Below, in pieces: positions 3,983 to 40,022 of a DNA stretch of 42,693 nt. The stretch comes from a virus. Each line of letters opens with the position of its first letter. Within the stretch, counting starts at the first letter, position 1. The stretch spans positions 1 through 42,693 of the IMG/VR virus record IMGVR_UViG_3300034095_000192; one strand, 5' to 3'. The notes below the pieces were generated by a model. It was not told where the DNA came from, ran no database searches, and worked only from the letters and a program-made list of their open reading frames with translations. Position numbers and translations under genes: made by a program.

Positions 3983-4125
3983 GAAAACTATTTAAGAGAT
4001 GGTTCTGTCCTCCACATAAGTGCTCAAGGTTCCGACAATACTATTCGCTTAACTTAAAGATATGCACTGAGTGTTATAAAGAGTCCGAGCTTTGGGGCGA
4101 TAACATAATTAAACACCAACGATGA
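3979..4125 (+). CDS. Small Cys-rich, zinc-ribbon-like protein
   Basis: This 48-residue ORF is linked by ATGA overlaps on both sides. It is basic at the start (MRKLFKRWF) and has cysteine pairs at 10/15 (CPPHKC, with a histidine between) and 29/32 (CTEC). The arrangement fits a small zinc ribbon. No family is recognised; a nucleic-acid-binding helper role is plausible from its replication neighbours but unproven. Confidence 0.5.
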   Translation: MRKLFKRWFCPPHKCSRFRQYYSLNLKICTECYKESELWGDNIIKHQR

Positions 4126-4814
4126 AAACACCTAGCTTCTCATACAGTTCACTGAGCCAGTTTATCACTTGCCCAAAACAATACGAAGCCCATAAGGTTT
4201 TAAAGTACGTTCCTTTTACTGATACAGATGCCACACTGTATGGTAAGGATGTCCATTCGGCGGCAGAACACTATATAGGATCAAGCACCCCGTTGCCTGA
4301 GAAGTACAACTATATTAAGAGCTACCTTGATACATTAAATAATATCAATGGCGATAAGTTCTGTGAGCTTGAACTGGGTATTAAGTTAGAAGATGGAGAG
4401 TACGCACTGTGCGAGTTTGAGGCAGAGGATAGGTACTGGCGGGGAATTGCGGATTTAGTTATTGTAGACGAGGCGGCAGGTAAGGCGTATATTGTGGACT
4501 ATAAGACAGGTAAGTCTGCCAAGTATGCAGACCCTAAGCAGCTTGCACTACTAGCTGCGGCGGTGTTCTTGAAATACCCAGCCCTTAAAGTTATTAAAGG
4601 GATGCTACTGTTTGTAGTGTCGAAAGAGATAATAAAAGCTGAGTACACGTATGATAAACGATTCGAGATATTTGACAAGCTAAAAGAAGTCCTCACTCAG
4701 CGTGAGGTAGCTTACGAAACAGGTATCTTTAATACTAAGCCTAATGGCTTGTGCCGTCAGTGGTGCCAAGCTACACGGTGTATACATAACGGGAGATACA
4801 ATGGGGATAAGTAG
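4122..4814 (+). CDS. PD-(D/E)XK nuclease of the RecB/Cas4-like superfamily
   Basis: The product is 230 residues. The sequence shows the family's landmarks in order: N-terminal SYSSLSQFITCPKQY with C17, GKDVHSAAEHY (41-51), GIADLVIV with D111, IVDYKTGK with D126 and K128, and the QLALLA helix. Three cysteines near the C-terminus (C211, C215, C220) plus C17 resemble the four-cysteine iron-sulfur staple of Cas4 and AddB, although the spacing (x3, x4) differs from the classic one. A likely role is DNA end processing or recombination during replication. No cas genes are nearby, so this is not a CRISPR component. Confidence 0.85.
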   Translation: MKTPSFSYSSLSQFITCPKQYEAHKVLKYVPFTDTDATLYGKDVHSAAEHYIGSSTPLPEKYNYIKSYLDTLNNINGDKFCELELGIKLEDGEYALCEFEAEDRYWRGIADLVIVDEAAGKAYIVDYKTGKSAKYADPKQLALLAAAVFLKYPALKVIKGMLLFVVSKEIIKAEYTYDKRFEIFDKLKEVLTQREVAYETGIFNTKPNGLCRQWCQATRCIHNGRYNGDK

Positions 4815-12495: not shown

Positions 12496-15400
12496 CTACC
12501 TGCTTACGCCTTTTTCATCAGCTCGTTTTATTGCCCGATTTGCCAGCTTATTAATCTTTTCTTGAAGTACCCGTATACGTGTAGCTTTTTCATCAGGTGA
12601 CATTTCAGTATCAGGCGTATTCTTTATACGAGCTATACGCCCTTGCATAGTTCCGATCTGTTCCCCTGTTGCTCCTAGTAGAGGAGCCATCTTACGTAGT
12701 TTCTCATTCTCAGGTTCGTTCCTTAAAGCCTTAGCTTCCTCTTTATCCCCAACTTGCTTATAAGCTCTAATACCATTAACAATTTGTTCTGCTGACTTAG
12801 CTAAGGCGTAGTAATCACTAAGAGCTTTGTCTTTAGCTGGAGCAGTTACTACCCCTTTCCATAAGAACTTTTCTCCTAACTCTTTCGTGGGAGCAGATAC
12901 CCCCGTAACACTAGAGATATAGGCATCCGCCAACAAAGCAGATAGTGCCCACGCCTCTGTAAACCAACCTTTACCTAAATGCTCTATATCATTAGGGGAC
13001 ATATTTAAAAAGCTTGGTAACCCCCCTGCTATTTTCTCAGCTAAAGGAGTTGCGTGTGCTGTACGTTGGTTTAAAGGCAGTCTACTTTCTGTAAAACTAT
13101 TAATAGGGTTGCCTGTATAAAGGTCATGGTTCATTAATACTTCCCCTACAGGCTTAACTGTTTGAGGGAGTATTGGAGGTACCGATAGAGCCTTAAACGC
13201 CTCCCACAACGCTTTCCTACCCCCTTTAGGTGTAAGCGATCCCCTACTTACACGCACCAGTATTTCAGGGATAACTTTAAATAAAAACCCCGCTTCAAAA
13301 TGGATAGGTATTTTTATAAAAGGGTTATCTTTATTTCCTGTAGGTATTAGCCAACTAGTTATCCAGTCGGTGGATTTCCTATACTCCTCATCATCGTCCA
13401 TCTGTAGAGCGTACAATATAGAAGCTGTTGTTACCATAGCCGCATTAGCATAGAAGTGCTTTCTAACAGTAGCCGCATCTTTTACGTTTAAATTACCGTA
13501 ACCCCCCGGAATTGCGGCTCTAGCAAGGGTGTCCATACCATTTAACGTAGAAGCAAAGAAAGGGACAGAGTCTCGCATAGCCGCATGATTCCTAGACTTT
13601 CCTTTTTTAGAGAAGTTTATTAATTCCTTAGCTTGCATCGCAGCAAAATTCTTACGTTGTTGAGGGTCTACTATCCCACGTTTAGCTGCCAGCTTAAGAG
13701 CCTTTTCATAAACAGCAACCCTAGTACCTGCATCGGACGCTTCATGTACGTGTACAATAAAGTCCCTAAGCCAACCTGATACCCCACGTTTAGTTGCTAT
13801 GCTTTTTACAAGTTGTGTTGTATCTGTTAAGGTATCTACGGCACCCGTAATACCCCTTCTCTGTAGCTCGTTATACCCCTCAGAACGGCGGGCTACAATT
13901 TTACCCATGTGATATAAAGCGTGTAGGGGTGTAATAAGGCCCGACTGCGTTACTAAGTTTGCCATCAAAGGGTCCCGTATAAGCTGACGGTACCAGTATA
14001 CGGGGGTGGTCAAGGTAACTTTCCTAAAAACATTTGCGTGTGCTTTAGCTACTTTTCTCATCCACCCCGGCTGAAGGGGTATCATAGTTTGGAATGCTTC
14101 AAACGCTAGAGTGTCCCCTATGTGGTAGTAAACATCCTCCCCATTCACCTTAAACTTAGTTGCCTGTGGGTCACTTCGGTCCTTCGTTTCATAAAAAAGA
14201 GTATCCGCAACTGCGTTTAACTGCATAGCCGCAGTCTGCCTTGCAATGTTTTGAGCCGCCGCCCCTGCCATAAGCGCAGAGTGCTTTACTAAGTTTTCTG
14301 CGACATTAACCGTTTGCTTACTCCCTTCACGTGATTTAACTTCCCAAGAATGTTTAGCCCCTAGTGAGAGCACCTCTACGTATTTAGAAGGGTCGTCAGA
14401 TAAATCTTCTATACTTTTATATAGGGGGATATAAGCAGGGTTTGATCGCCAATCATTGGCTGTAGTACTATTAATAATCCCTGCTTTTTCAAATAGGTCT
14501 ACATCTTTACGGAGCCTCTCAAATATATTATTCATGATGTCCCCTAGTCTAGGGTCTTCAATCAGTAACGCTTCAGTCAAGGCAATATCTTCTGGCGTAA
14601 CACGTTGTTCAGTACCCACACCTACTTCTAGTGTTTTAGTTAACCTATCAACATCATTTCTAAGCTTCTCCACTTGGTCTAGTAAGGAGTCACGTTTAGT
14701 CTTGTCTGTAGTAGTAGCCACAAGTGCTTCTTTCTTCTCTGCTTTTGCTATCTTAGCATCTATGTCAGCTTGTACGTCAACTGCAGATTTCTTACCATGC
14801 TTAGCGTATAGCTTATTAGAGGCTTCTTTTAACTGAGTGGCTCTAGTAGTAAGGGCTACTTTTTCTTTAGTAATGATGGATATAACACTCTTAAAGTCTT
14901 TTATTTGAACTGCATCTTTAGCAGTAACCGCAGCGGCAAGTGCCCTTCTTGCGTCTACTAACGCACCTGTTAGGTGATCTATATCCCCTTGTAGGACCTT
15001 TTCAAAATCTTTATATAACTTAGCATCAGCCCGGCGCTCTACATCTATACGGAGTATCTCTTTCCCAGCCACTACACGCAGAGCTGTGAAGAATGTTTTG
15101 CGGTTGTCCTTATACCCTAGTCCGTCAATAAGTTTAATATTATTATGCAAGTCTAGTCTAGGGTCGTCTACAGACATAAGAGTTCCGTCACCAGTTGTGT
15201 CTATATACCCCCTGCTATTACGCAACATATTGCTAAGGTTTCCTATTGACTGAAGTACGAAGTCTCCTCGCATCTTTCCTTTTGGGTCAAACATATCTAG
15301 CGGTTTCAATAAACGGCTTATCGCAGCTGAGTCATCTATCCACCCAGCCCGCAACTTAACTATATTGTCCCCTGTCATAAAACCAGAAACAGCCTCTCGG

Positions 15401-18400
15401 ATAACCCCACTTATACTTTTATCTGAAGTCTTAACAAGGCCCAAACCAACTAATGCTTTACCAATATCCTGTGCATCTTTAGTTGGTTTGATTGAATAAG
15501 ACGTACCTTCTTTACGAGCGGTTCGTACTGCAGTTTTAGACTCTCTGCGTAAGGCTTTAACAGCTAGGTGCCTAGCATCAGCTTCAGTTAGTTGTAGCTT
15601 CATACCCAAATGCATACGGGCAAAGTTCCTAACTGCAGATACAATCTTTTTAACGACAGGTAAGTTTGGAGCGTTCTCTACTAGATAAGCAAGTGCCTCA
15701 TGGTGGCGCAAGTGTGTAGGTGTATCTTTAGGAATAGAAGCACGAGCCTTATCAAAAACTTCCCCTACATTGTTCAGGGCTTGGTTTGCAATATCTTTGT
15801 ATACTTTAGACCCAACTAAGTTCTCCATACCTACATGGGTTCCCACCTCATGCAATGCTACGTTCTCTAGAGTCTCAGGCGTTAGCTTGTTAGCTACATA
15901 GTGAGTTACACCTTCAGCAGTAGTTAGCCCTTGCACGTTCGCAGGGTGTTTGCCTTCAGGTAGAGTCTCAGCAGTATCATGCATAACAGCCTTACCAGAT
16001 GCCACTAGGCGTTTCATCTCAGGTGATAAGGTCTTAGACAACGAAGCGGCGGTGTGTTCGGTAAGTTCAGAAGTAGGTGCTACTGATTGGTAATCATGCC
16101 CGCTATAGTCAAAATCACCAAAATCCATTTGTTCAGCTATATCGCTATCGTCCTCAAAATCATACATAGAGTCATCTGATAACGTCTTAGTTGTATCTTC
16201 TACATCTTCCTCTACATCTTCATCTACAACTTTCTTAGTTTTTTTAGCTTTCTTACCCTGCACTTCTAATAACTTTTTAGCTTCAGCTTCTTTGTTTTTC
16301 CTTAATACTTCAGCTGCGTCATCAGCTACGATCTTAGCATCTGCAGCTTCCTTAGCGGCTTTTTTATCAGCAAACCCTTGCACTATCAGTTGGTTCTTCT
16401 CATACTCACCAACTTCACCCTCATCAACAACACCATTTTTAGTCTTTGATTGACCGCGTTCTTTATTATATTCATCTATATAATCTGGATGGTACTTTCT
16501 CCACAAACCAGTTGACGCAGCGTTAAATAATTTGGACGTACTATTACCAAATCCTAGTTTATCAATAACATGAAGAGCCCCTTCCTCAGAAGGTTTTGTT
16601 AACGAGTCATATAATATTTTATTTAGTTCTTTAGAACCGTATTTGCTATTTAATAAGTCTGATAAATTGTTTTCAACTATATTAAAATGAGCTAGTGGGA
16701 CTGGAACCCCTGATTTATTGCGCCCAGTAAAGGTTATACTGCCTTTAACATAATCTACCGATACTTTTCCTTTATTTGCAGTTTCAAGATATAATACCTC
16801 CCCTCTATCTTGTGCATTTATGGCTTTTATATTATAGGTCTGTGCAGGATTATTTGAAGTTATATAAAGACCCCGACCTGCGGTATCTATAGAGGCTTCT
16901 CCTTTATCTGTTGTATGTTCGTAATGCTCAGCATACATCTCATCTCTAGGTATATATGAAACCCCTTCTACACCAACTTCACCCTCATCCTTCTTACCTG
17001 CTTTATCTATTACACTATCAATCCCTTGCTGGTTTATCTGTAGCCCTACACCTATTTTTTGTGCCGTAGGTGTTATAGCCTGTTCTATCTGTTTAGCTAC
17101 TCCTGAATGAGGCATATCTGGGTCTATATCTAAGCCCAGTCTTGTAGCAATATTATATAAAGCATCTATGTTAGTTTGAGAAGGTTCCCTAGTTTTTGAC
17201 TTTCTTATACTTGCATCATACTTATCTAACACAGTTTGTGACGCACTTATTAATGCAGGGGCTACTTCTTCTTTAGCGCCTGTTTCAATAGCTTCGATCC
17301 CTTGTCCTTCTGATTCCATTCCTTTGCCAACTTGGGTGATATCTTCAGCTGCTTGGCTTTCTTGGGATTGTGTGCTGCCATCGCCATTAATCGGGCTTGT
17401 GCTGGGGATTTGCTGGGCATCAGTTGTCTCTCCTAGTGTAGGTGTAGTTTGTCCTTGTTGTATTGCTTCCATGTAGTTCGGTAGTATTTTTGATTGCTCC
17501 TCTGTTATAGTACCTGCTCTTTTAAGTTCTGCAATAACAGGGGCTGTTATCTTTCTAATAGCTTCATGGTCAGCAGGGTTGTTAATATCCAAACCTTTAG
17601 ATGCAATATTTTTATATACTCCACTTTTTTTATGCAGTCCTAGCATATCTGTAACCCAAGTAGGCTCAGTCTTTACAGGCTTTACAGGCTTTTCTTTTTT
17701 CCCTCTTAGTATAGGTTCTTTCACAGCTACTACTGGTGCTCCTGCTACAACTTCTTCCACCCCTGCTACTACTGGTGGGCCACCTGCCGCTGCTTCAGCT
17801 ACACGTGCTCTTTCTTCAGGAGTGATAATTAAAGGATTTACTGGAGGTGCAGGTACTTCGCCTTGAGGGGGTACAGGTATCTCACCTGCTGGAGGGTTTA
17901 CGGGTGGTGGAGGTGGAGGAGGTGCTTGTTCTGTAGTACCTGCTATTTGACTAGCAGTGTTTGCACCACCACCCATGATAGCGCCCATAAGAGCGCCCTT
18001 CACACTTTCATCCTCAACACCGTCTAGTAAACCTTTGGGGTTGTCTGTAGCATAGTTCTGAGCCATTTGTTCTATGGCTGATTGAGGCGCTTCTTGGAAT
18101 ACACCTTCGCCTATCATAGATACTAGGGTAGACCTAAAGAACCCCGGAGTATTAGCAACATCCCCAAACTCTTGCAGTGCCATCTTCCTAGCGTTGCCTG
18201 AGAGAAGTATGTTGGGGTCAATACCCCCTAATGCCGTAGTAAGCTTAGCACCTGCAGCTCCAACTACACCCGTCCCAACTCCTGTAAGTAACGCCGCTTG
18301 GGTGTTTGCTCCTGTTGCTTCGCCTTCTGGGTTGGTAACTCTTAAGTTTTCTTTCTGAGCACCTGCACCTACACCTGCTTCACCTATACCTGCAGCAAAA

Positions 18401-19584
18401 TAAGGAGCAACTGCTGGTACTTTAGTTAAAACTTTACCTAACCCCATTAACCCTGCTTTAGCTATACCTGCACCACCTACCATTTGACCTGCAGACTCAC
18501 CTATAGCTGAAACTACTGCTGAGGGGTTATCTTTAGCGGCTTGTAGGACAGCTCTCCATCCATGAGCTGCAGCTAAGTTCTTAATGGCTTCTTGTTGTTG
18601 AGGAGAGTATTGCGTACTTAAGTACTCTTGCACTTTGTTGAGGTCAAGCCCTGCATCTTCAACGGCCCCCCCTAAATCTCCCGGTGTAAGAAGATCAGCT
18701 AAGCCTATAAAAGATTGACCTAGACCTACACCGCCTTTCATAGCGCCTACACCAATATCTTCCAATACCTTAGTACCACGACCTTCTGTTTCTTTTTTGG
18801 GTAGGGAGAAATCTATAGTAGGGTCTGCTTCTGAGGCTCGTTTAACAGCTTCTTCGTCTGACATATTATCAGGAACCCGTAATGTGCCCCCATTAGCTAA
18901 AGGTACTTCTCTTAGACCAACTGCATCTATACCGTGTGCTCTAGCATCTGCAATAGCTTGCTCTCTAGGCATACCAACAGGAGCATGTAAAGAACCCCCA
19001 TTAGCTAAAGGAATTTCATACATCTCCCCTTTAGGGCCTTCTTGTTCAGGAGGAGGCGCCCCACCTAGTACATTAGATACGTATAATTGTGTTTCTCTAG
19101 GAGTAGCTGATAGCCAGTTGTCCCCTGCTTTTCGTATAGCTTTATTAAGATTGCCTTCACCGTAGTTATAAGCAGCAACAGCCTTAGCCATATCACCGTT
19201 ATAATACTTAACCAAACCTGCCATCTTCTTACCAGCAGCATCAATAGATGCATACGGATCAAGTGCATCAACCCCATACTCTTTAGCAGTAGGAGGCATT
19301 AACTGCATCAAACCAGTAGCACCTGCAGGACTTACGGCATTAGGGTTGTACCTACTTTCATTGTAGCCTATAGTAGATAGTAAGCCTTCTGGTAATCCGT
19401 ATTGACCCTCAGCTTTTAGAAACGCTTCTCCGTATGAGGAGGCGGGACCTTGTTGGGGTTGAGGCATATACTGAGATATGTCCTCTTCAGGAAGTGCTTG
19501 TGTAGGAGTAGCAGGTTGTATTCCAAAAAGGTCTGCGGAAACAGCAGGGTTATAAGCAAAAGGATTTGATTCTGTATTAGCCAT
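12496..19584 (-). CDS. Giant polyvalent virion/ejection protein with lytic transglycosylase domain
   Basis: The product is 2362 residues. Residues about 50-175 are a lytic transglycosylase (YNES with catalytic E76, GLMQLMPPTA at 91-100, AAYNYGEGN at 137-145). Two similar 28-residue units follow (IPLANGGSLHAP, VPLANGGTLRVP). Next come a Gly/Ala-rich hydrophobic stretch (about 280-560) and a proline-rich linker. A region near 875-930 (GRGLYITSNNPAQTY) is weakly ADP-ribosyltransferase-like. An acidic/lysine-rich coiled coil then precedes a zincin-like motif HEVGTH (H1245, E1246, H1250) and an LPD38-like region near 1850 (PVYWYRQLIRDPLM). Such proteins are packaged and injected with DNA. It is the last gene of the late unit. 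Confidence 0.85.
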   Translation of the reverse strand: MANTESNPFAYNPAVSADLFGIQPATPTQALPEEDISQYMPQPQQGPASSYGEAFLKAEGQYGLPEGLLSTIGYNESRYNPNAVSPAGATGLMQLMPPTAKEYGVDALDPYASIDAAGKKMAGLVKYYNGDMAKAVAAYNYGEGNLNKAIRKAGDNWLSATPRETQLYVSNVLGGAPPPEQEGPKGEMYEIPLANGGSLHAPVGMPREQAIADARAHGIDAVGLREVPLANGGTLRVPDNMSDEEAVKRASEADPTIDFSLPKKETEGRGTKVLEDIGVGAMKGGVGLGQSFIGLADLLTPGDLGGAVEDAGLDLNKVQEYLSTQYSPQQQEAIKNLAAAHGWRAVLQAAKDNPSAVVSAIGESAGQMVGGAGIAKAGLMGLGKVLTKVPAVAPYFAAGIGEAGVGAGAQKENLRVTNPEGEATGANTQAALLTGVGTGVVGAAGAKLTTALGGIDPNILLSGNARKMALQEFGDVANTPGFFRSTLVSMIGEGVFQEAPQSAIEQMAQNYATDNPKGLLDGVEDESVKGALMGAIMGGGANTASQIAGTTEQAPPPPPPPVNPPAGEIPVPPQGEVPAPPVNPLIITPEERARVAEAAAGGPPVVAGVEEVVAGAPVVAVKEPILRGKKEKPVKPVKTEPTWVTDMLGLHKKSGVYKNIASKGLDINNPADHEAIRKITAPVIAELKRAGTITEEQSKILPNYMEAIQQGQTTPTLGETTDAQQIPSTSPINGDGSTQSQESQAAEDITQVGKGMESEGQGIEAIETGAKEEVAPALISASQTVLDKYDASIRKSKTREPSQTNIDALYNIATRLGLDIDPDMPHSGVAKQIEQAITPTAQKIGVGLQINQQGIDSVIDKAGKKDEGEVGVEGVSYIPRDEMYAEHYEHTTDKGEASIDTAGRGLYITSNNPAQTYNIKAINAQDRGEVLYLETANKGKVSVDYVKGSITFTGRNKSGVPVPLAHFNIVENNLSDLLNSKYGSKELNKILYDSLTKPSEEGALHVIDKLGFGNSTSKLFNAASTGLWRKYHPDYIDEYNKERGQSKTKNGVVDEGEVGEYEKNQLIVQGFADKKAAKEAADAKIVADDAAEVLRKNKEAEAKKLLEVQGKKAKKTKKVVDEDVEEDVEDTTKTLSDDSMYDFEDDSDIAEQMDFGDFDYSGHDYQSVAPTSELTEHTAASLSKTLSPEMKRLVASGKAVMHDTAETLPEGKHPANVQGLTTAEGVTHYVANKLTPETLENVALHEVGTHVGMENLVGSKVYKDIANQALNNVGEVFDKARASIPKDTPTHLRHHEALAYLVENAPNLPVVKKIVSAVRNFARMHLGMKLQLTEADARHLAVKALRRESKTAVRTARKEGTSYSIKPTKDAQDIGKALVGLGLVKTSDKSISGVIREAVSGFMTGDNIVKLRAGWIDDSAAISRLLKPLDMFDPKGKMRGDFVLQSIGNLSNMLRNSRGYIDTTGDGTLMSVDDPRLDLHNNIKLIDGLGYKDNRKTFFTALRVVAGKEILRIDVERRADAKLYKDFEKVLQGDIDHLTGALVDARRALAAAVTAKDAVQIKDFKSVISIITKEKVALTTRATQLKEASNKLYAKHGKKSAVDVQADIDAKIAKAEKKEALVATTTDKTKRDSLLDQVEKLRNDVDRLTKTLEVGVGTEQRVTPEDIALTEALLIEDPRLGDIMNNIFERLRKDVDLFEKAGIINSTTANDWRSNPAYIPLYKSIEDLSDDPSKYVEVLSLGAKHSWEVKSREGSKQTVNVAENLVKHSALMAGAAAQNIARQTAAMQLNAVADTLFYETKDRSDPQATKFKVNGEDVYYHIGDTLAFEAFQTMIPLQPGWMRKVAKAHANVFRKVTLTTPVYWYRQLIRDPLMANLVTQSGLITPLHALYHMGKIVARRSEGYNELQRRGITGAVDTLTDTTQLVKSIATKRGVSGWLRDFIVHVHEASDAGTRVAVYEKALKLAAKRGIVDPQQRKNFAAMQAKELINFSKKGKSRNHAAMRDSVPFFASTLNGMDTLARAAIPGGYGNLNVKDAATVRKHFYANAAMVTTASILYALQMDDDEEYRKSTDWITSWLIPTGNKDNPFIKIPIHFEAGFLFKVIPEILVRVSRGSLTPKGGRKALWEAFKALSVPPILPQTVKPVGEVLMNHDLYTGNPINSFTESRLPLNQRTAHATPLAEKIAGGLPSFLNMSPNDIEHLGKGWFTEAWALSALLADAYISSVTGVSAPTKELGEKFLWKGVVTAPAKDKALSDYYALAKSAEQIVNGIRAYKQVGDKEEAKALRNEPENEKLRKMAPLLGATGEQIGTMQGRIARIKNTPDTEMSPDEKATRIRVLQEKINKLANRAIKRADEKGVSR

Positions 19585-32277: not shown

Positions 32278-33498
32278 TTAAGAGAGGGTAGCTAGGGCGA
32301 ACTGATAACCACATGATACATTGGTCCAAGTGGTAAGTGCACCTACCTGTACAGGACTAGAACGATTAGTTATACTGCCTAAACCTAACTGCCCACTAGC
32401 GTTATTTCCCCAAGACCATAGAGTTCCGTCTGTTTTAGTTGCCAAAGCCCATTGGTAATTAGCTTTTATTTCAGACCAAGTTGTAAGTACACCTACTTGT
32501 TTGGGGCTTGAGTAGTTAGTTGTATTGCCTAGACCTAAGCCACCAAAACTATTAATCCCCCATGACCACAGGGTGCCATCTGTTTTAATGACTAGAGTAG
32601 ATGATTCTGCACATGCAATTTTAAGCCAAGTAGTAAGAGCCCCTACTTGTTTGGGGCTTGAGTAGTTAGTTGTATTGCCTAGACCTAACTGCCCCTGAGT
32701 ATTAAAGCCCCAAGACCATAAGGTGCCATCTGTTTTAGTCGCTATAGAATGGTAGAATCCTCCTGCTATGTTTAACCAAGTAGTAAGTGCACCTACTTGT
32801 ACAGGGCTGGAGCGGTTAGTTGTATTTCCTAAACCTAATTGTCCTTCATTATTATTTCCCCAAGACCAGAGAGTGCCGTCTGTTTTAGTTGCTATACTAT
32901 GATTGTTTCCACATGCTATAGTTAACCAATTTGTAAGAGCACCCACTTGATTTGGTGAAGATTTATAAGTGCCAGCACCTGAAGTACCTAAACCTAACTG
33001 TCCACTGTCATTAGACCCCCAAGACCATAGAGTACCATCTGTTTTAGTAGCTAAGACCCCCGCTGGACCTCTAAGAGTTTCTATTTTAGACCAAGTTGTA
33101 AGAGCACCTACTTGCTTAGGGCTTGAGTAGCTGGTGGTATTATTTAATCCTAATTGACCATTACCATTATACCCCCAAGACCAAAGAGTGCCATCTGTTT
33201 TAGTTGCTAGAGAAAATATTTGGGCACCTGCTATTTTAGACCAAGTAGTAAGGGCACCTACTTGCTTAGGGCTTGAGAAGTCAGTTGTATTACCTAGACC
33301 CAACATCCCAAAAACGTTATACCCCCAAGAATAAAGTTTATTAGGTGCTAAATTCCCAGCAGTGGGCCAGTTGCCTTGTTTTATCCAGTATCCCGCTTGC
33401 TCCATTGTCCATACACCTGAAGCAGAACTGTTTTGATACGGCCCAGCTGGTACTACAGGTGAGGATTTTATGACACCACCAGGATACTTAGTTGACAT
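32278..33498 (-). CDS. RCC1-repeat seven-bladed propeller adhesin 1
   Basis: The product is 406 residues. After an N-terminal anchor of about 50 residues (GVWTMEQAGYWIKQGNWPTA) come seven units of about 50 residues on the theme KTDGTLWSWG-xNxxG-QLGLGNTT-SSPxQVGALTTW. The final TTWTNVSCGYQFALATLS should close the ring on the first blade. RCC1-type propellers bind ligands on exposed loops. Here those loops vary while the scaffold hardly does. One blade carries a short insertion (GTSGAGTYKSSP). Its ATG directly follows the stop of the sulfotransferase gene, with no gap. Receptor binding is inferred. Confidence 0.85.
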   Translation of the reverse strand: MSTKYPGGVIKSSPVVPAGPYQNSSASGVWTMEQAGYWIKQGNWPTAGNLAPNKLYSWGYNVFGMLGLGNTTDFSSPKQVGALTTWSKIAGAQIFSLATKTDGTLWSWGYNGNGQLGLNNTTSYSSPKQVGALTTWSKIETLRGPAGVLATKTDGTLWSWGSNDSGQLGLGTSGAGTYKSSPNQVGALTNWLTIACGNNHSIATKTDGTLWSWGNNNEGQLGLGNTTNRSSPVQVGALTTWLNIAGGFYHSIATKTDGTLWSWGFNTQGQLGLGNTTNYSSPKQVGALTTWLKIACAESSTLVIKTDGTLWSWGINSFGGLGLGNTTNYSSPKQVGVLTTWSEIKANYQWALATKTDGTLWSWGNNASGQLGLGSITNRSSPVQVGALTTWTNVSCGYQFALATLS

Positions 33499-35244
33499 TT
33501 ATTTCTCCAATCTTTCTTTAATTAATGCAAATGGTGCATCCCACTCGCCAAAACTTTCTTGTCTTATTAAGGTCATACTGTCGTAGTATGGGGTTGCTTC
33601 GCCCTCTAGTGCATATAGGAAGTATGGCATAATAGGCGTCACCACCCACGTATCAATCCCCATAGCAGACGATAAGTGCGATACACTGGTACATGCCGAT
33701 ATAACCAAATCACAACTTGCTACAGCAGCTCTAGTATCTTCCCAACTATTTAGTGGTACTTGCTTAACCCACATAGGCGTAGCCTCTACACCAGCATCTC
33801 TTTGTAGACTTATAAACTCGTAGTTATCACTCTTAACAGCATCAAACATCAACTGGTAAGGAAAGGCTTTGTGGTGCTCATGTTCAAACTGTGTAGAGCC
33901 TTGCCACCTCAAACCAATACGTTTCTTTCTTCCCTTTATTGTAACAGGTTTAGGTAAATAAGGTGCACCACTAATATCTTCTAATTCAAAGCCTAACGGT
34001 ACTATAGCACTCATACCAGCAACCCAAAAGTCATGGTAGATACCAAACACCGCTTCGTGTTGAATAACGCTAGATACACCCTCTACATTAACGAATAAAG
34101 AAGCTAACTGACCAGAGCAAGCCACGATGACTTTACAGCCCTTCTCAGCGATATACTTAGCATATCTAACTTGGTGTATTTGATCGCCTAGACCGCCTTC
34201 AAGATTTAACAGCACAATCCCTTTAGTCTTGCCATCCCACTGCGGTGTAGGTACATCTGGTTGTTTATTACCAAAGACTCCAGCAATACGACCTCTATCT
34301 AATAACTGATAACCCTTTTGAATCTGACCTTGTCTTAAGAGATACCAACCACGATTATATGCAGCTCTGTTGTTACTTGGCTCTGTAGCCTCTAACTTCT
34401 GCGCTATGCGCCAGCCTTCAGCAAAATCACCTGTAGTAGATGCGGCTAGTTGTAAGTCCAAGTCATGTAAGTCAGGCATAGTCCTAGGCGTCTCTAACCA
34501 AAACTCAGGCTGGCAGAATGAGCCATAATAAGAACCTAATACATCTTTTGGGTTTTCGTTATGCTGTCTTTCAAGAACAGGTTTCACATCGTGCATACCT
34601 TTAGTGCCATGCAACTGCTCATCATCCTCAGCTACAGTAGAACCATCAATAGCATTAAAGTCGTATTCAAAATCAGGTAATTCTAAAAAGGTATGTATAC
34701 GTTGCAGTTGCTCTTTAGGATTAGAAATTAAGTCATCGTATTCAATAAATAAGAAGTTATCCGGTGCCGCTAAGTAACCGTTCTGTAGCGATATGTACGC
34801 AGCCTTTAAGTGATCCATCAACTGCCCAGATTCCATAAACTCATCTAAATCTTCGGGCTTAGCAATACGTACAAACGATGCCGCACAATCAGGTACAGAA
34901 CGAACAGTAGCAATAATCTTTGGTTGATGCCCTAATACTTGAGCCATAGCAGACATAATTTGAGCTATAGGCCAGCCACGTGACTTATCAATTATAACGG
35001 GCTTATCTACATCTTCATAAAAGGCATCAATAGCCCCACGCATAGTTTGAGCTAACTTCTTACGCTCAGGGTCATTTTCATTCAATAAACCCGCAGAATG
35101 CCACACATTCGCCAAACCATCTAGTGCATGAACCAACCCTGATGTAGTAGATACATGGGTGTCCGAATTTTGATTAAGTATAGCTGCAAGTACCGTAGAA
35201 CCTGAACGTGGCACACCTGATAGGAAATGTAGAGTCTTTTTCAT
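33499..35244 (-). CDS. Sulfotransferase-TPR-glycosyltransferase fusion protein
   Basis: The product is 581 residues. Residues 1-250 are a PAPS-dependent sulfotransferase: the 5'-phosphosulfate loop SGVPRSGSTVLAAIL (9-23), and TVRSVPDCAASFVR (113-126), where R115 and S123 fit the 3'-phosphate site. Residues about 262-320 look like one or two TPR helices. From 335 on, QWDGKTKGIVLLNLEGGLGD, KRIGLRWQGS (441-450) and CDLVISACTSVSHLSSAMG (511-529) match a GT-B glycosyltransferase of the GT9/TPR-associated kind. Targets could be virion adhesins or host surface glycan. It lies between two RCC1 adhesin genes and abuts adhesin 1. Confidence 0.85.
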   Translation of the reverse strand: MKKTLHFLSGVPRSGSTVLAAILNQNSDTHVSTTSGLVHALDGLANVWHSAGLLNENDPERKKLAQTMRGAIDAFYEDVDKPVIIDKSRGWPIAQIMSAMAQVLGHQPKIIATVRSVPDCAASFVRIAKPEDLDEFMESGQLMDHLKAAYISLQNGYLAAPDNFLFIEYDDLISNPKEQLQRIHTFLELPDFEYDFNAIDGSTVAEDDEQLHGTKGMHDVKPVLERQHNENPKDVLGSYYGSFCQPEFWLETPRTMPDLHDLDLQLAASTTGDFAEGWRIAQKLEATEPSNNRAAYNRGWYLLRQGQIQKGYQLLDRGRIAGVFGNKQPDVPTPQWDGKTKGIVLLNLEGGLGDQIHQVRYAKYIAEKGCKVIVACSGQLASLFVNVEGVSSVIQHEAVFGIYHDFWVAGMSAIVPLGFELEDISGAPYLPKPVTIKGRKKRIGLRWQGSTQFEHEHHKAFPYQLMFDAVKSDNYEFISLQRDAGVEATPMWVKQVPLNSWEDTRAAVASCDLVISACTSVSHLSSAMGIDTWVVTPIMPYFLYALEGEATPYYDSMTLIRQESFGEWDAPFALIKERLEK

Positions 35245-35296: not shown

Positions 35297-36445
35297 TTAA
35301 GAGAGGATGGCTATGGAGTAGTTATACCCGCTTGCAATTTTAGACCAAGTAGTTAGTGATCCCACTTGTTTAGGACTTGAATAAGCGTATGTAGTATTGC
35401 CTAACCCTAATTGCCCGCTATTATTAAAACCCCAAGACCAAAGAGTACCGTCTGTTTTGGTGACTATATTACTATACCTCCCACAAGATATACTCAACCA
35501 AGTTGTAAGTGCGCCTATTTGTTTAGGGCTAGAGTAGTAAGTCAAGTTGCCAAGACCTAATTGACCTAGATTATTTCTACCCCAAGACCATAACGTACCG
35601 TCTGTTTTAATTGCTAAACCATGTTGAACCCCCCCCGATATCTTAGACCAAGTTGTTAGGGTACCAATTTGGTTAGGTGAGGACCTATAAATTGTATTAC
35701 CTAACCCTAACTGCCCAGCATTGTTCTGCCCCCAAGACCAGAGAGTGCCATCGGTTTTAATAGCAAAGGATAAAGCTCCACCTGTGCCACAAGCAACGCT
35801 AGACCAAGTTGTAAGTGCACCTACTTGTACGGGGCTTGAACGGTTAATTGTATCCCCTATGCCTAATTGTCCAGCATTATTACTCCCCCAAGCCCATAAT
35901 GTACCATCTGTTTTAATGGCTAAATTGTGTTGAATACCGACTGATATTTTAGACCAACTTGTTAATGCCCCTATTTGTTTAGGGGAAGAGTAGTTAGTAA
36001 TGTTACCTAGTCCCAATTCCCCACTAGTATTAATCCCCCACGCCCAGAGAGTGCCATCAGTTTTAATAAGGGTACTGTGTTGGCTACCACATGATATTTT
36101 AGACCAAGTTGTAAGTGCGCCTACTTGTTTTGGGCTTGAGTAGTTGGTTGTGTTTCCTAGACCTAACTGTCCTTGAGCATTAGACCCCCAAGACCAAAGT
36201 GTGCCATCAGATTTAGTAGTTAAAGAAAATTCGCCCCCTCCTGCTATAATAGACCAAGTTGAAGCTCCTACTTGCACGGGGCTTGAACGGTTAGCTGTAT
36301 CACCTAGTCCTAATTGTCCGCTACTGTTCTGCCCCCAAGACCAAAGTCCCGGCAGACCTGTCCAAGTTCCCGCAGCTACGGCTTGCATTTGACTCTGTGG
36401 TGTCCACATGCCTGAATATTGTACGTATGGATAAATTACTGGCAT
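35297..36445 (-). CDS. RCC1-repeat seven-bladed propeller adhesin 2
   Basis: The product is 382 residues. A short anchor (YPYVQYSGMWTPQSQMQAV) is followed by seven blades with WSWG or WAWG cores, ending TTWSKIASGYNYSIAILS, which likely closes the ring. Compared with the other two copies it is more divergent, with IKTDGTLWAWG and GALTSW variants and a blade with an insertion (ACGTGGALSFA). The anchor differs from those of copies 1 and 3, so each copy may attach at its own place on the tail. The function as adhesin is inferred. Confidence 0.83.
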   Translation of the reverse strand: MPVIYPYVQYSGMWTPQSQMQAVAAGTWTGLPGLWSWGQNSSGQLGLGDTANRSSPVQVGASTWSIIAGGGEFSLTTKSDGTLWSWGSNAQGQLGLGNTTNYSSPKQVGALTTWSKISCGSQHSTLIKTDGTLWAWGINTSGELGLGNITNYSSPKQIGALTSWSKISVGIQHNLAIKTDGTLWAWGSNNAGQLGIGDTINRSSPVQVGALTTWSSVACGTGGALSFAIKTDGTLWSWGQNNAGQLGLGNTIYRSSPNQIGTLTTWSKISGGVQHGLAIKTDGTLWSWGRNNLGQLGLGNLTYYSSPKQIGALTTWLSISCGRYSNIVTKTDGTLWSWGFNNSGQLGLGNTTYAYSSPKQVGSLTTWSKIASGYNYSIAILS

Positions 36446-36454
36446 TGTATTTTC

Positions 36455-37585
36455 CTAATATTTGAGGGCTATTGAGAAAGAATCGCCATCTGCCACTTTA
36501 GACCACGTTGTAAGAGCACCAACTTGTTTGGGGCTTGAGTAGTCAGTTGTGTTATTTAAGCCTAACTGCCCACTACTGTTTAAACCCCAAGACCAGAGAG
36601 TACCATCAGTTTTAGTAGCTATGGTGTGGAAGCCTCCACCTGCAATATTTAACCAAGTTGTAAGTGCGCCCACCTGTACAGGACTAGAACGATTAGTTGC
36701 ATTGCCTAGACCTAATTGACCACTAGTATTTTGGCCCCAAGACCACAGAGTTCCGTTTGTTTTAGTTGCTAAAGAAAAGTTACCTCCACCTGCAATAGTA
36801 GACCACGTTGTAAGAGCACCTACTTGTTTTGGGCTTGAGTAGTAAGTTATGTTACCTAAACCTAATTGTCCAACATTATTAATCCCCCAAGACCAGAGTG
36901 TACCATCTGTTTTAGTTGCTATGGTGTGGTACCTTCCACATGCTATATTTAACCAAGTGGTTAATGCGCCTACTTGTACAGGACTAGAACGATTAGTTGC
37001 ATTGCCTAGACCTAATTGACCAGCATTATTTCTACCCCAAGACCACAGAGTTCCGTTTGTTTTAGTTGCTATACTATGAGAGCTCCCACATGCTATATTA
37101 GACCACGTTGTAAGAGCACCTACTTGTACAGGACTTGAACGATCAGTTGTATTGCCTAGGCCTAACTGACCGCTAGAATTAAATCCCCATGACCACAGGG
37201 TGCCATCTGTTTTAGTTGCTATGGTGTGATCCTGCCCAGCTGCTATGTTAAGCCAAGTTGTAAGTGCCCCTACTTGTTTTGGGCTTGAATAGACAGTGGT
37301 ATTGCCTAAGCCTAACTGACCATTGGTGTTTTGACCCCAAGACCAAAGAGTGCCGTCTGTTTTAGTTGCTAGAGTGTGGTTGCCCCCACCTGCAATAGTA
37401 GACCAAGTTGTTAATGCACCTACTTGTTTTGGACTTGAGTAGTAAGTTACATTACCTAGACCTAACTGCCCAAAAACATCATTCCCCCAAGTCCAAAGCT
37501 CATAGGTATAGGCACTGGGTGTAGGGGCAGCCAAAGGGTTAAAGAGTCCTGCTTGTATGAACCCTGCTAAATATCTTTGCGACAT
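36455..37585 (-). CDS. RCC1-repeat seven-bladed propeller adhesin 3
   Basis: The product is 376 residues. The anchor is about 30 residues (MSQRYLAGFIQAGLFNPLAA), then seven blades, the most regular of the three copies. Blades differ mainly at xNxxG and at the loop between the TTW strand and the LATK strand (GGGNHT, AGQDHT, CGSSHS, CGRYHT, GGGFHT, DGDSFS). Two blades two units apart share long identical DNA blocks. It is the first RCC1 gene to be transcribed and follows a small virion protein. Nothing suggests an enzyme; receptor binding is inferred. Confidence 0.85.
   Translation of the reverse strand: MSQRYLAGFIQAGLFNPLAAPTPSAYTYELWTWGNDVFGQLGLGNVTYYSSPKQVGALTTWSTIAGGGNHTLATKTDGTLWSWGQNTNGQLGLGNTTVYSSPKQVGALTTWLNIAAGQDHTIATKTDGTLWSWGFNSSGQLGLGNTTDRSSPVQVGALTTWSNIACGSSHSIATKTNGTLWSWGRNNAGQLGLGNATNRSSPVQVGALTTWLNIACGRYHTIATKTDGTLWSWGINNVGQLGLGNITYYSSPKQVGALTTWSTIAGGGNFSLATKTNGTLWSWGQNTSGQLGLGNATNRSSPVQVGALTTWLNIAGGGFHTIATKTDGTLWSWGLNSSGQLGLNNTTDYSSPKQVGALTTWSKVADGDSFSIALKY
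36675..37127 (-). repeat. Near-identical blade repeats with variable patches, 300 bp apart
   Basis: Three blocks are identical at 300-bp offset: 36675-36722 with 36975-37022 (48 bp), 36735-36771 with 37035-37071 (37 bp) and 36799-36827 with 37099-37127 (29 bp). Between them, 36723-36734 and 36772-36798 differ from their partners at about 20 of 39 positions. The patches encode the xNxxG turn and the loop before the LATK strand. Confidence 0.9.
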
Positions 37586-39359: not shown

Positions 39360-40022
39360 TTAAACTACCTTATCCCTTACTTGGGTTACACGATACGTAT
39401 CAATGCGGTCTTTGCCATCACCTAATTGTTTAAGAAGAGCCATAGCCTCTTGATACTTCTGTTGGTAAGCTTGAATCAAATCTGGTTCACCCTTCATATA
39501 TATGTAAGCTTCGACCAAAGAGCCCCACAATAACACGTTAGGGAAGTTAGTACCTAGCCAGCTTGTACCTGCGTCTACTATAGACTGCGGATACGCATAA
39601 TAATGCATCTCTACCGAATAATCGTCATCAGGAGTAGGACCTAATATAAAAGAAGCATTATCAAAAATACCATAGTATTGTGGCACCCCAGAAACACCCG
39701 GATAGGGGTAGGCTTCTCTTATATACTCAACGTCTTTCTGGTATAAGTAGTTTTGGGTGGTCTGAGGTATTAGGTCTATTACAGTCGTGGTGTACACAGA
39801 CAAAGCAAATACTGACAGGAAGTCAGGTGGGAGAGCTACATAAGGAAAGTTAGCTGTTGTTACGCCCGTAACATTAGTACGAAATGCAGGTAACTGCACA
39901 GAGTTATTAACCAAAGTCTCTGCGTTTTGTACAAAGTTGGGTATGTTAGCTACAAAAGTAGCCTCTGTGACTTCAGTATACTGCTGTATCGCCGTACTAA
40001 GTTGTGCGTATGTAAAACTCAT
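39360..40022 (-). CDS. Tail adaptor / head-tail connector protein
   Basis: The product is 220 residues. The opening FTYAQLSTAIQQYTEVTEAT and then FVQNAETLVNNSVQLPAFR, together with GVPQYYGIFDNASFILGPTP and VEMHYYAYPQSI, match adaptor proteins of podovirus-like phages (T7 gp11-type role). Such proteins form the ring joining portal and tail. The C-terminal helices (LIQAYQQKYQEAMALLKQLG) complete the fold. Confidence 0.75.
   Translation of the reverse strand: MSFTYAQLSTAIQQYTEVTEATFVANIPNFVQNAETLVNNSVQLPAFRTNVTGVTTANFPYVALPPDFLSVFALSVYTTTVIDLIPQTTQNYLYQKDVEYIREAYPYPGVSGVPQYYGIFDNASFILGPTPDDDYSVEMHYYAYPQSIVDAGTSWLGTNFPNVLLWGSLVEAYIYMKGEPDLIQAYQQKYQEAMALLKQLGDGKDRIDTYRVTQVRDKVV

Follow-up and report, generated by a model that had tools for sequence, protein, structure and literature searches.

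The window analysed here is an entire virus record of 42,693 nt, in which the replication genes lie on the plus strand and the structural module on the minus strand. The phage is represented only by metagenome contigs. Three minus-strand genes, here called A, B and C, match the RCC1 repeat family (PF00415, E values of about 1e-79 to 1e-90) with seven repeats each, and the 21 blades counted in a preliminary description of the sequence are indeed three genes of seven (Table 1). Elsewhere in the window, the match to an SU10-type adaptor protein places the phage near SU10-like podoviruses, and the largest of the tabulated proteins, which carries SLT transglycosylase and LPD38 domains, is probably an ejected internal virion protein. 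A sulfotransferase-family protein is encoded between genes B and C, in a slot where DNA similarity is retained in several relatives. Given the Tyr-rich loops of the adjoining propellers, a tyrosine-sulfating role for this protein is conceivable.

Table 1. Positions of the genes discussed and of the parts of the repeated tract in gene A
Feature	Position (nt)	Strand	Details
PD-(D/E)XK exonuclease	4122..4814	+	PF12705 E 2.1e-15; PHROG 69 exonuclease E 2.9e-24
SLT/LPD38 protein	12496..19584	-	2,362 aa; N-terminal SLT transglycosylase domain E 6.4e-26; LPD38 domain near C-terminus
RCC1 gene C	32278..33498	-	406 aa, seven blades; PF00415
Sulfotransferase-family protein	33499..35244	-	581 aa; PF13469 E 1.5e-14
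RCC1 gene B	35297..36445	-	382 aa, seven blades; PF00415
RCC1 gene A	36455..37585	-	376 aa, seven 50-residue blades A1-A7; PF00415 E 1.2e-90, 298 bits, 7 stretches
Tract in gene A, A5/A6 junction	36675..36827	-	
Identical framework block 1, A6 copy	36675..36722 (48 nt)	-	Partner 36975-37022
Divergent patch 1, xNxxG turn, columns 5-9 of A6	36723..36734 (12 nt)	-	Partner 37023-37034 in A4
Identical framework block 2, A5/A6 junction	36735..36771 (37 nt)	-	Partner 37035-37071
Divergent patch 2, GGxxHS-type loop, columns 34-43 of A5	36772..36798 (27 nt)	-	Partner 37072-37098 in A3
Identical framework block 3, A5	36799..36827 (29 nt)	-	Partner 37099-37127
Partner tract at +300 nt, A3/A4 junction	36975..37127	-	Sequence self-comparison
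SU10-type adaptor protein	39360..40022	-	PF24175 E 1.1e-26

To characterize the gene A product, we modelled it with AlphaFold2 (pLDDT 84.6, pTM 0.83) and obtained 28 strands in seven groups of four. The nearest solved folds are the UVR8, HERC and RCC1 propellers, and the best Foldseek match is UVR8 (E 1.2e-37, TM 0.84, 33% identity). Together with a Pfam match above the family cut-off, the model indicates that gene A is a member of the RCC1 repeat family with a predicted seven-blade propeller. The likeness to UVR8 (PDB 4dnw, 4d9s), a plant UV-B receptor, is one of fold and implies no common function. From the position of the gene among structural genes and from weak matches to tail PHROGs, the protein probably belongs to the tail region and binds a ligand or receptor; it is from this same evidence that we infer the label ‘adhesin’ used in the preliminary description.

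Within gene A, the tract at the A5/A6 junction and its partner, offset by 300 bp, are identical at 133 of 153 bases. The preliminary description had reported that 114 of 114 bases match in three blocks, with about 20 differences among the 39 bases of the two intervening patches, and these counts proved exact, 20 patch bases being different. Read on the coding (minus) strand, the patches encode the two loops to which they had been assigned. The identity was also said to reach synonymous sites, and we found that the blocks contain 35 whole codons with 27.7 synonymous sites, of which 0 are changed. In other blade pairs of the same gene, about 42% of the codons specifying the same residue differ, and the blades of gene A are about 73% identical to each other in DNA sequence. 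Both elements of the original argument, namely that duplication or gene conversion is required and that change is focused on two loops, are supported.

An alignment of the blades at the DNA level had been proposed as a check on whether variation is spread evenly along the repeat. It is not: in the window blades and in 797 related fifty-codon blades, variation sits in few columns, the high-variability positions among the latter being 6, 8, 9, 17, 19, 33, 34, 36, 37 and 39–43. Framework residues are strongly conserved among the 797 blades, and constraint on the protein accounts for much of the difference between loops and framework but leaves the synonymous identity unexplained. Tyr, Asn, Ser, Gly and Ala are frequent in columns 6, 8, 9, 39 and 40, a composition common at binding surfaces. 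Patch 2 aligns with the GWRHT motifs of UVR8 (W233/R234 and W285/R286), the columns of patch 1 align with D96 and R146, and column 19 aligns with D107. In UVR8, D96, D107, R146 and the Trp/Arg pairs of the GWRHT motifs are dimer interface or salt-bridge residues (PMC5091643). Alignment to UVR8, rather than a complex of the gene A protein, hence places the high-entropy columns on the predicted interaction face.

Split-identity tracts recur in related genes. When chains were defined as exact runs of at least 25 nt separated by divergent patches, 14 chains were present in 12 of 299 related phage genes, and 15 of the 16 chain breaks fell within columns 3–11 or 29–48. The gene A chain, with 114 nt, is the largest and most extreme of the 14. 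Within genes, 30% of loop bases remain different in the 8 blade pairs whose framework four-fold divergence is 0.1 or less, and 44% in the 43 pairs at 0.1–0.2; the divergence of loops shows no correlation with that of frameworks. Seven blade motifs and 377–404 aa (5th–75th percentile) are typical of complete ORFs; near-identical complete ORFs keep their length, and repeat-number polymorphism was not seen among them. Larger arrangements of RCC1-type repeats also occur in this collection. One complete ORF carries 52 blade motifs, three reading frames of 13.7, 8.4 and 7.4 kb contain many RCC1-type blades (L286_1, L278_1 and L416_1, respectively), and at the loci L033 (of IMGVR_UViG_3300020527_000396) and L044 (of IMGVR_UViG_3300002835_000103) eight RCC1 propeller genes lie in about 10 kb of one contig.

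To assess recombination among blades, we counted pairs in which a 36-nt framework block is identical. Such identity occurred in 36 of 9,290 within-gene pairs (0.39%), in 10 of 12,196 pairs from the same genome (0.08%) and in 38 of 2,379,850 pairs between genomes (0.0016%), an excess of about 240-fold within genes over between genomes. Block sharing and the tracts together indicate that the repeats are homogenised within the gene. Two individual cases bear on the exchanges themselves. In contig L069, one loop departs at 7 nt from 15 near-identical contigs, and the L069 version is identical over 106 nt to a blade 450 nt downstream in the same gene; this is the only patch replacement with an identified donor and, as a single contig of 16, could on its own be an assembly bubble or artefact. 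The other, L318_1, is a mosaic that equals L321/L325 over 79 of 79 nt where L315 differs and equals L315 over 193 of 193 nt where L321 differs. Taken together, and with this caution for L069, the two cases show that blades of one gene recombine and that strains recombine with one another. We rejected the free exchange of loops as cassettes between frameworks as the principal mode, since patch-2 loops that are identical but have divergent flanks occurred in 0 of the 9,290 within-gene pairs, once within genomes and once between genomes. Since gene A is equally divergent from its orthologs at the same and at other blade positions, blade orthology has already been lost for most relatives and was not used as a measure of whole-gene concerted evolution.

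Recent changes were sought among near-identical genomes, in data that consist of metagenome assemblies and yield few events. In near-identical genes, 11 of 16 changes lie in loops where 4.5 are expected (p=7e-4), including all 8 of the multi-nucleotide changes. Across near-identical tracts, events amount to 0.98/kb in loops, 0.17/kb in framework and 0.29/kb in other DNA, the last value being lowered by construction, as non-RCC1 DNA was used to define the near-identity mask. The mask does not affect the comparison of loops with framework, but purifying selection on the framework contributes to it. Contigs L276 and L277 differ by 6 SNPs in 44.4 kb aligned, 3 of them in RCC1 loop columns. L010 and L011 share a 3.5-kb tract with 1 SNP and an 8-nt change in patch 1, and the only two differences between L013 and L015 in 2.4 kb around the gene are in adjacent loop codons. 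The L010/L011 patch has no donor in IMG/VR, where its alleles occur nowhere else, and no donor for the L277 loop was present in the two loci examined of the L276/L277 genome pair. Beyond the RCC1 gene, seven SNPs cluster in 37 bases (2501–2537 of L275, compared with L276) of a tract that is near-identical elsewhere, so exchange in patches is not limited to RCC1 genes.

In most near-identical genomes the loops do not differ at all, and in several groups the genes are the same across many assemblies. For orthologs in the 95–99% and <95% identity sets, pooled loop dN/dS is about 0.45–0.5, and it is close to 0.5 at 85–95% identity; most ortholog loops are thus stably inherited. This ratio and the mostly identical loops indicate that the loops are not in constant flux. 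In the case of gene A, there is no variation in the sole other contig of the phage, an independently named assembly that is identical over 19.3 kb including the patches. The term ‘hypervariable’, applied to the patches in the preliminary description, thus holds between blades and is only occasionally true between strains.

Several other histories could give rise to a tract of this kind. If two blades had been duplicated recently, strong positive selection might then have driven their loops apart through point mutations, with no further recombination. Loops do hold most of the non-synonymous changes in pairs at least 99% identical (dN 0.0068, compared with 0.0006 in framework), loop dN exceeds loop dS in a few ortholog pairs (L005/L162, L318/L321 and L325/L328), and loop dN/dS is above 1 in the ≥99% set as well, although recombination confounds this ratio. 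All 20 patch differences would nevertheless have had to accumulate while none of the 27.7 synonymous sites changed, an outcome with a joint probability of no more than 3e-9 when loops change at 0.5 times the synonymous rate (the ortholog value), 4e-6 at the same rate and 2e-3 at 2.5 times that rate. Because ortholog loops evolve at about half the synonymous rate, duplication with ordinary mutation is very unlikely; with strong positive selection added, this history is still unlikely in our judgement, as the recent changes are multi-nucleotide patches, the patch 1 differences include a synonymous Gly codon change and the pair belongs to a gene with seven blades and a typical length. Constraint without exchange, whereby ancient blades have free loops and a protein-conserved framework and the 114-bp identity is left from one old duplication, would fit the strong conservation of framework residues. 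Protein constraint does not preserve synonymous sites, however, and the absence from the tract of the codon differences common elsewhere in the gene, along with the within-gene excess of identical framework blocks, makes this explanation highly improbable. It would be more improbable still that metagenome assembly produced the pattern by merging or swapping bubbles between paralogous blades. Repeats of high identity are known to defeat short-read assembly, and the blades share identical stretches of 30–50 bp that are prone to such mis-assembly (PMC12222747); the L069 change, found in one contig of 16, is of the kind expected. Artefacts copy existing patches, though, and most of the patches (L010/L011, L276/L277) lack a copy in the examined parts of those genomes. 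Moreover, the window sequence recurs exactly in the second contig, and identical genes in many assemblies are not what mis-assembly would produce.

The preliminary description left a choice between recombination and something more directed, and proposed a search for a reverse transcriptase and a template repeat. Neither was found. RVT_1 (PF00078) is absent from the window and from 22 related records of 11–125 kb, which may be incomplete, while control genomes were positive; no RCC1-like copy longer than 18 nt exists elsewhere in the window, the longest being 16–18 nt. Substitution specific to adenine is likewise absent in L069 and in the near-identical pairs, where changes affect all bases, including third positions. 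A diversity-generating retroelement, or other template-directed mutagenesis, would account for patchwise variation in the loops of a probable phage binding protein and for patches with no known donor. It would not be expected to leave loops identical in most near-identical genomes, or conserved in the L301/L303 orthologs, which at 86% identity have a loop dN of 0.074 and a dS of about 0.32–0.38, and we consider its involvement extremely remote. We also envisaged a dedicated process free of reverse transcriptase that targets the loop patches, with the blade frameworks as homology arms and new loops drawn from an unsampled pool, so that near-clonal phages would differ chiefly there; this seems to us a very doubtful proposition. 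Of the original alternatives, recombination remains the likely agent, whereas a directed process finds no support in the enzymes, templates, base spectrum or stability of the ortholog loops.

On balance, it is likely that the gene A tract arose by short-tract recombination among blades, genes and strains, combined with selection that keeps the loops diverse. Short-tract homologous recombination would homogenise the blade frameworks within a gene, among the RCC1 genes of one genome and across strains that circulate together. Heteroduplex would form readily in the matched 30–50 bp of framework and poorly across half-mismatched loops, which would either interrupt the exchange or be replaced a small patch at a time. 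Selection on the binding face, perhaps exerted by host receptors, would then keep the loops different. The loops would thus stay different, or be replaced patchwise, because selection favours diversity and because heteroduplex is poor across them. The gene A tract would represent one such event, involving the A3/A4 and A5/A6 junctions. As for the enzymes, the PD-(D/E)XK exonuclease encoded in the window could, at a guess, be a recombination enzyme.

Diversity-generating retroelements also place variation in the surface loops of phage binding proteins. The RCC1 case differs from them in lacking a reverse transcriptase (window and 22 relatives), a template repeat (window) and adenine bias. RCC1-like proteins are known from other phages, often in several copies per genome (PHROG 7220, 4219 and 16766; Synechococcus phage S-SRM01), and are annotated as regulators of chromosome condensation, hypothetical proteins or tail proteins. 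Coliphage phAPEC6 has eleven, for which a role in ordering DNA has been suggested (PMC7247149). In the literature searched, we found no description of loop variation or blade recombination in phage RCC1 proteins, nor a paper combining tandem repeats of phage tail fibres with gene conversion; matches to ‘RCC1’ in the prasinovirus literature were culture-collection strain numbers and were set aside.

The regime in the phage genes most closely resembles the concerted evolution of the fungal HNWD genes (het-d, het-e and het-r), in which WD40 propeller repeats evolve in concert and four interaction-face codons are variable (PMC12222747, PMC4986451). As in the sensor domains of these NLRs, a β-propeller would have its repeats homogenised within and between genes, while a few variable codons on the predicted interaction face differ among repeats. 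The analogy has its limits: the phage repeats are RCC1 and the fungal ones WD40, repeat DNA identity is about 73% in gene A compared with published HNWD values of >80% to 100% sequence identity, about 14 columns vary in the phage blades as opposed to four, repeat-number polymorphism is not visible in the phage genes and their loop dN/dS values give no firm sign of diversifying selection. If our reading is correct, this would be a route to new phage binding surfaces that involves no retroelement, the widespread annotation ‘regulator of chromosome condensation’ would be recast in phages as a likely recognition protein, and it could be predicted, in a testable way, where the phage strains of one lake differ. 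The evolution of a binding protein built from repeats in phages would then parallel that of the fungal propeller sensors of self and non-self, with a scaffold kept uniform by recombination and loops that are diverse.
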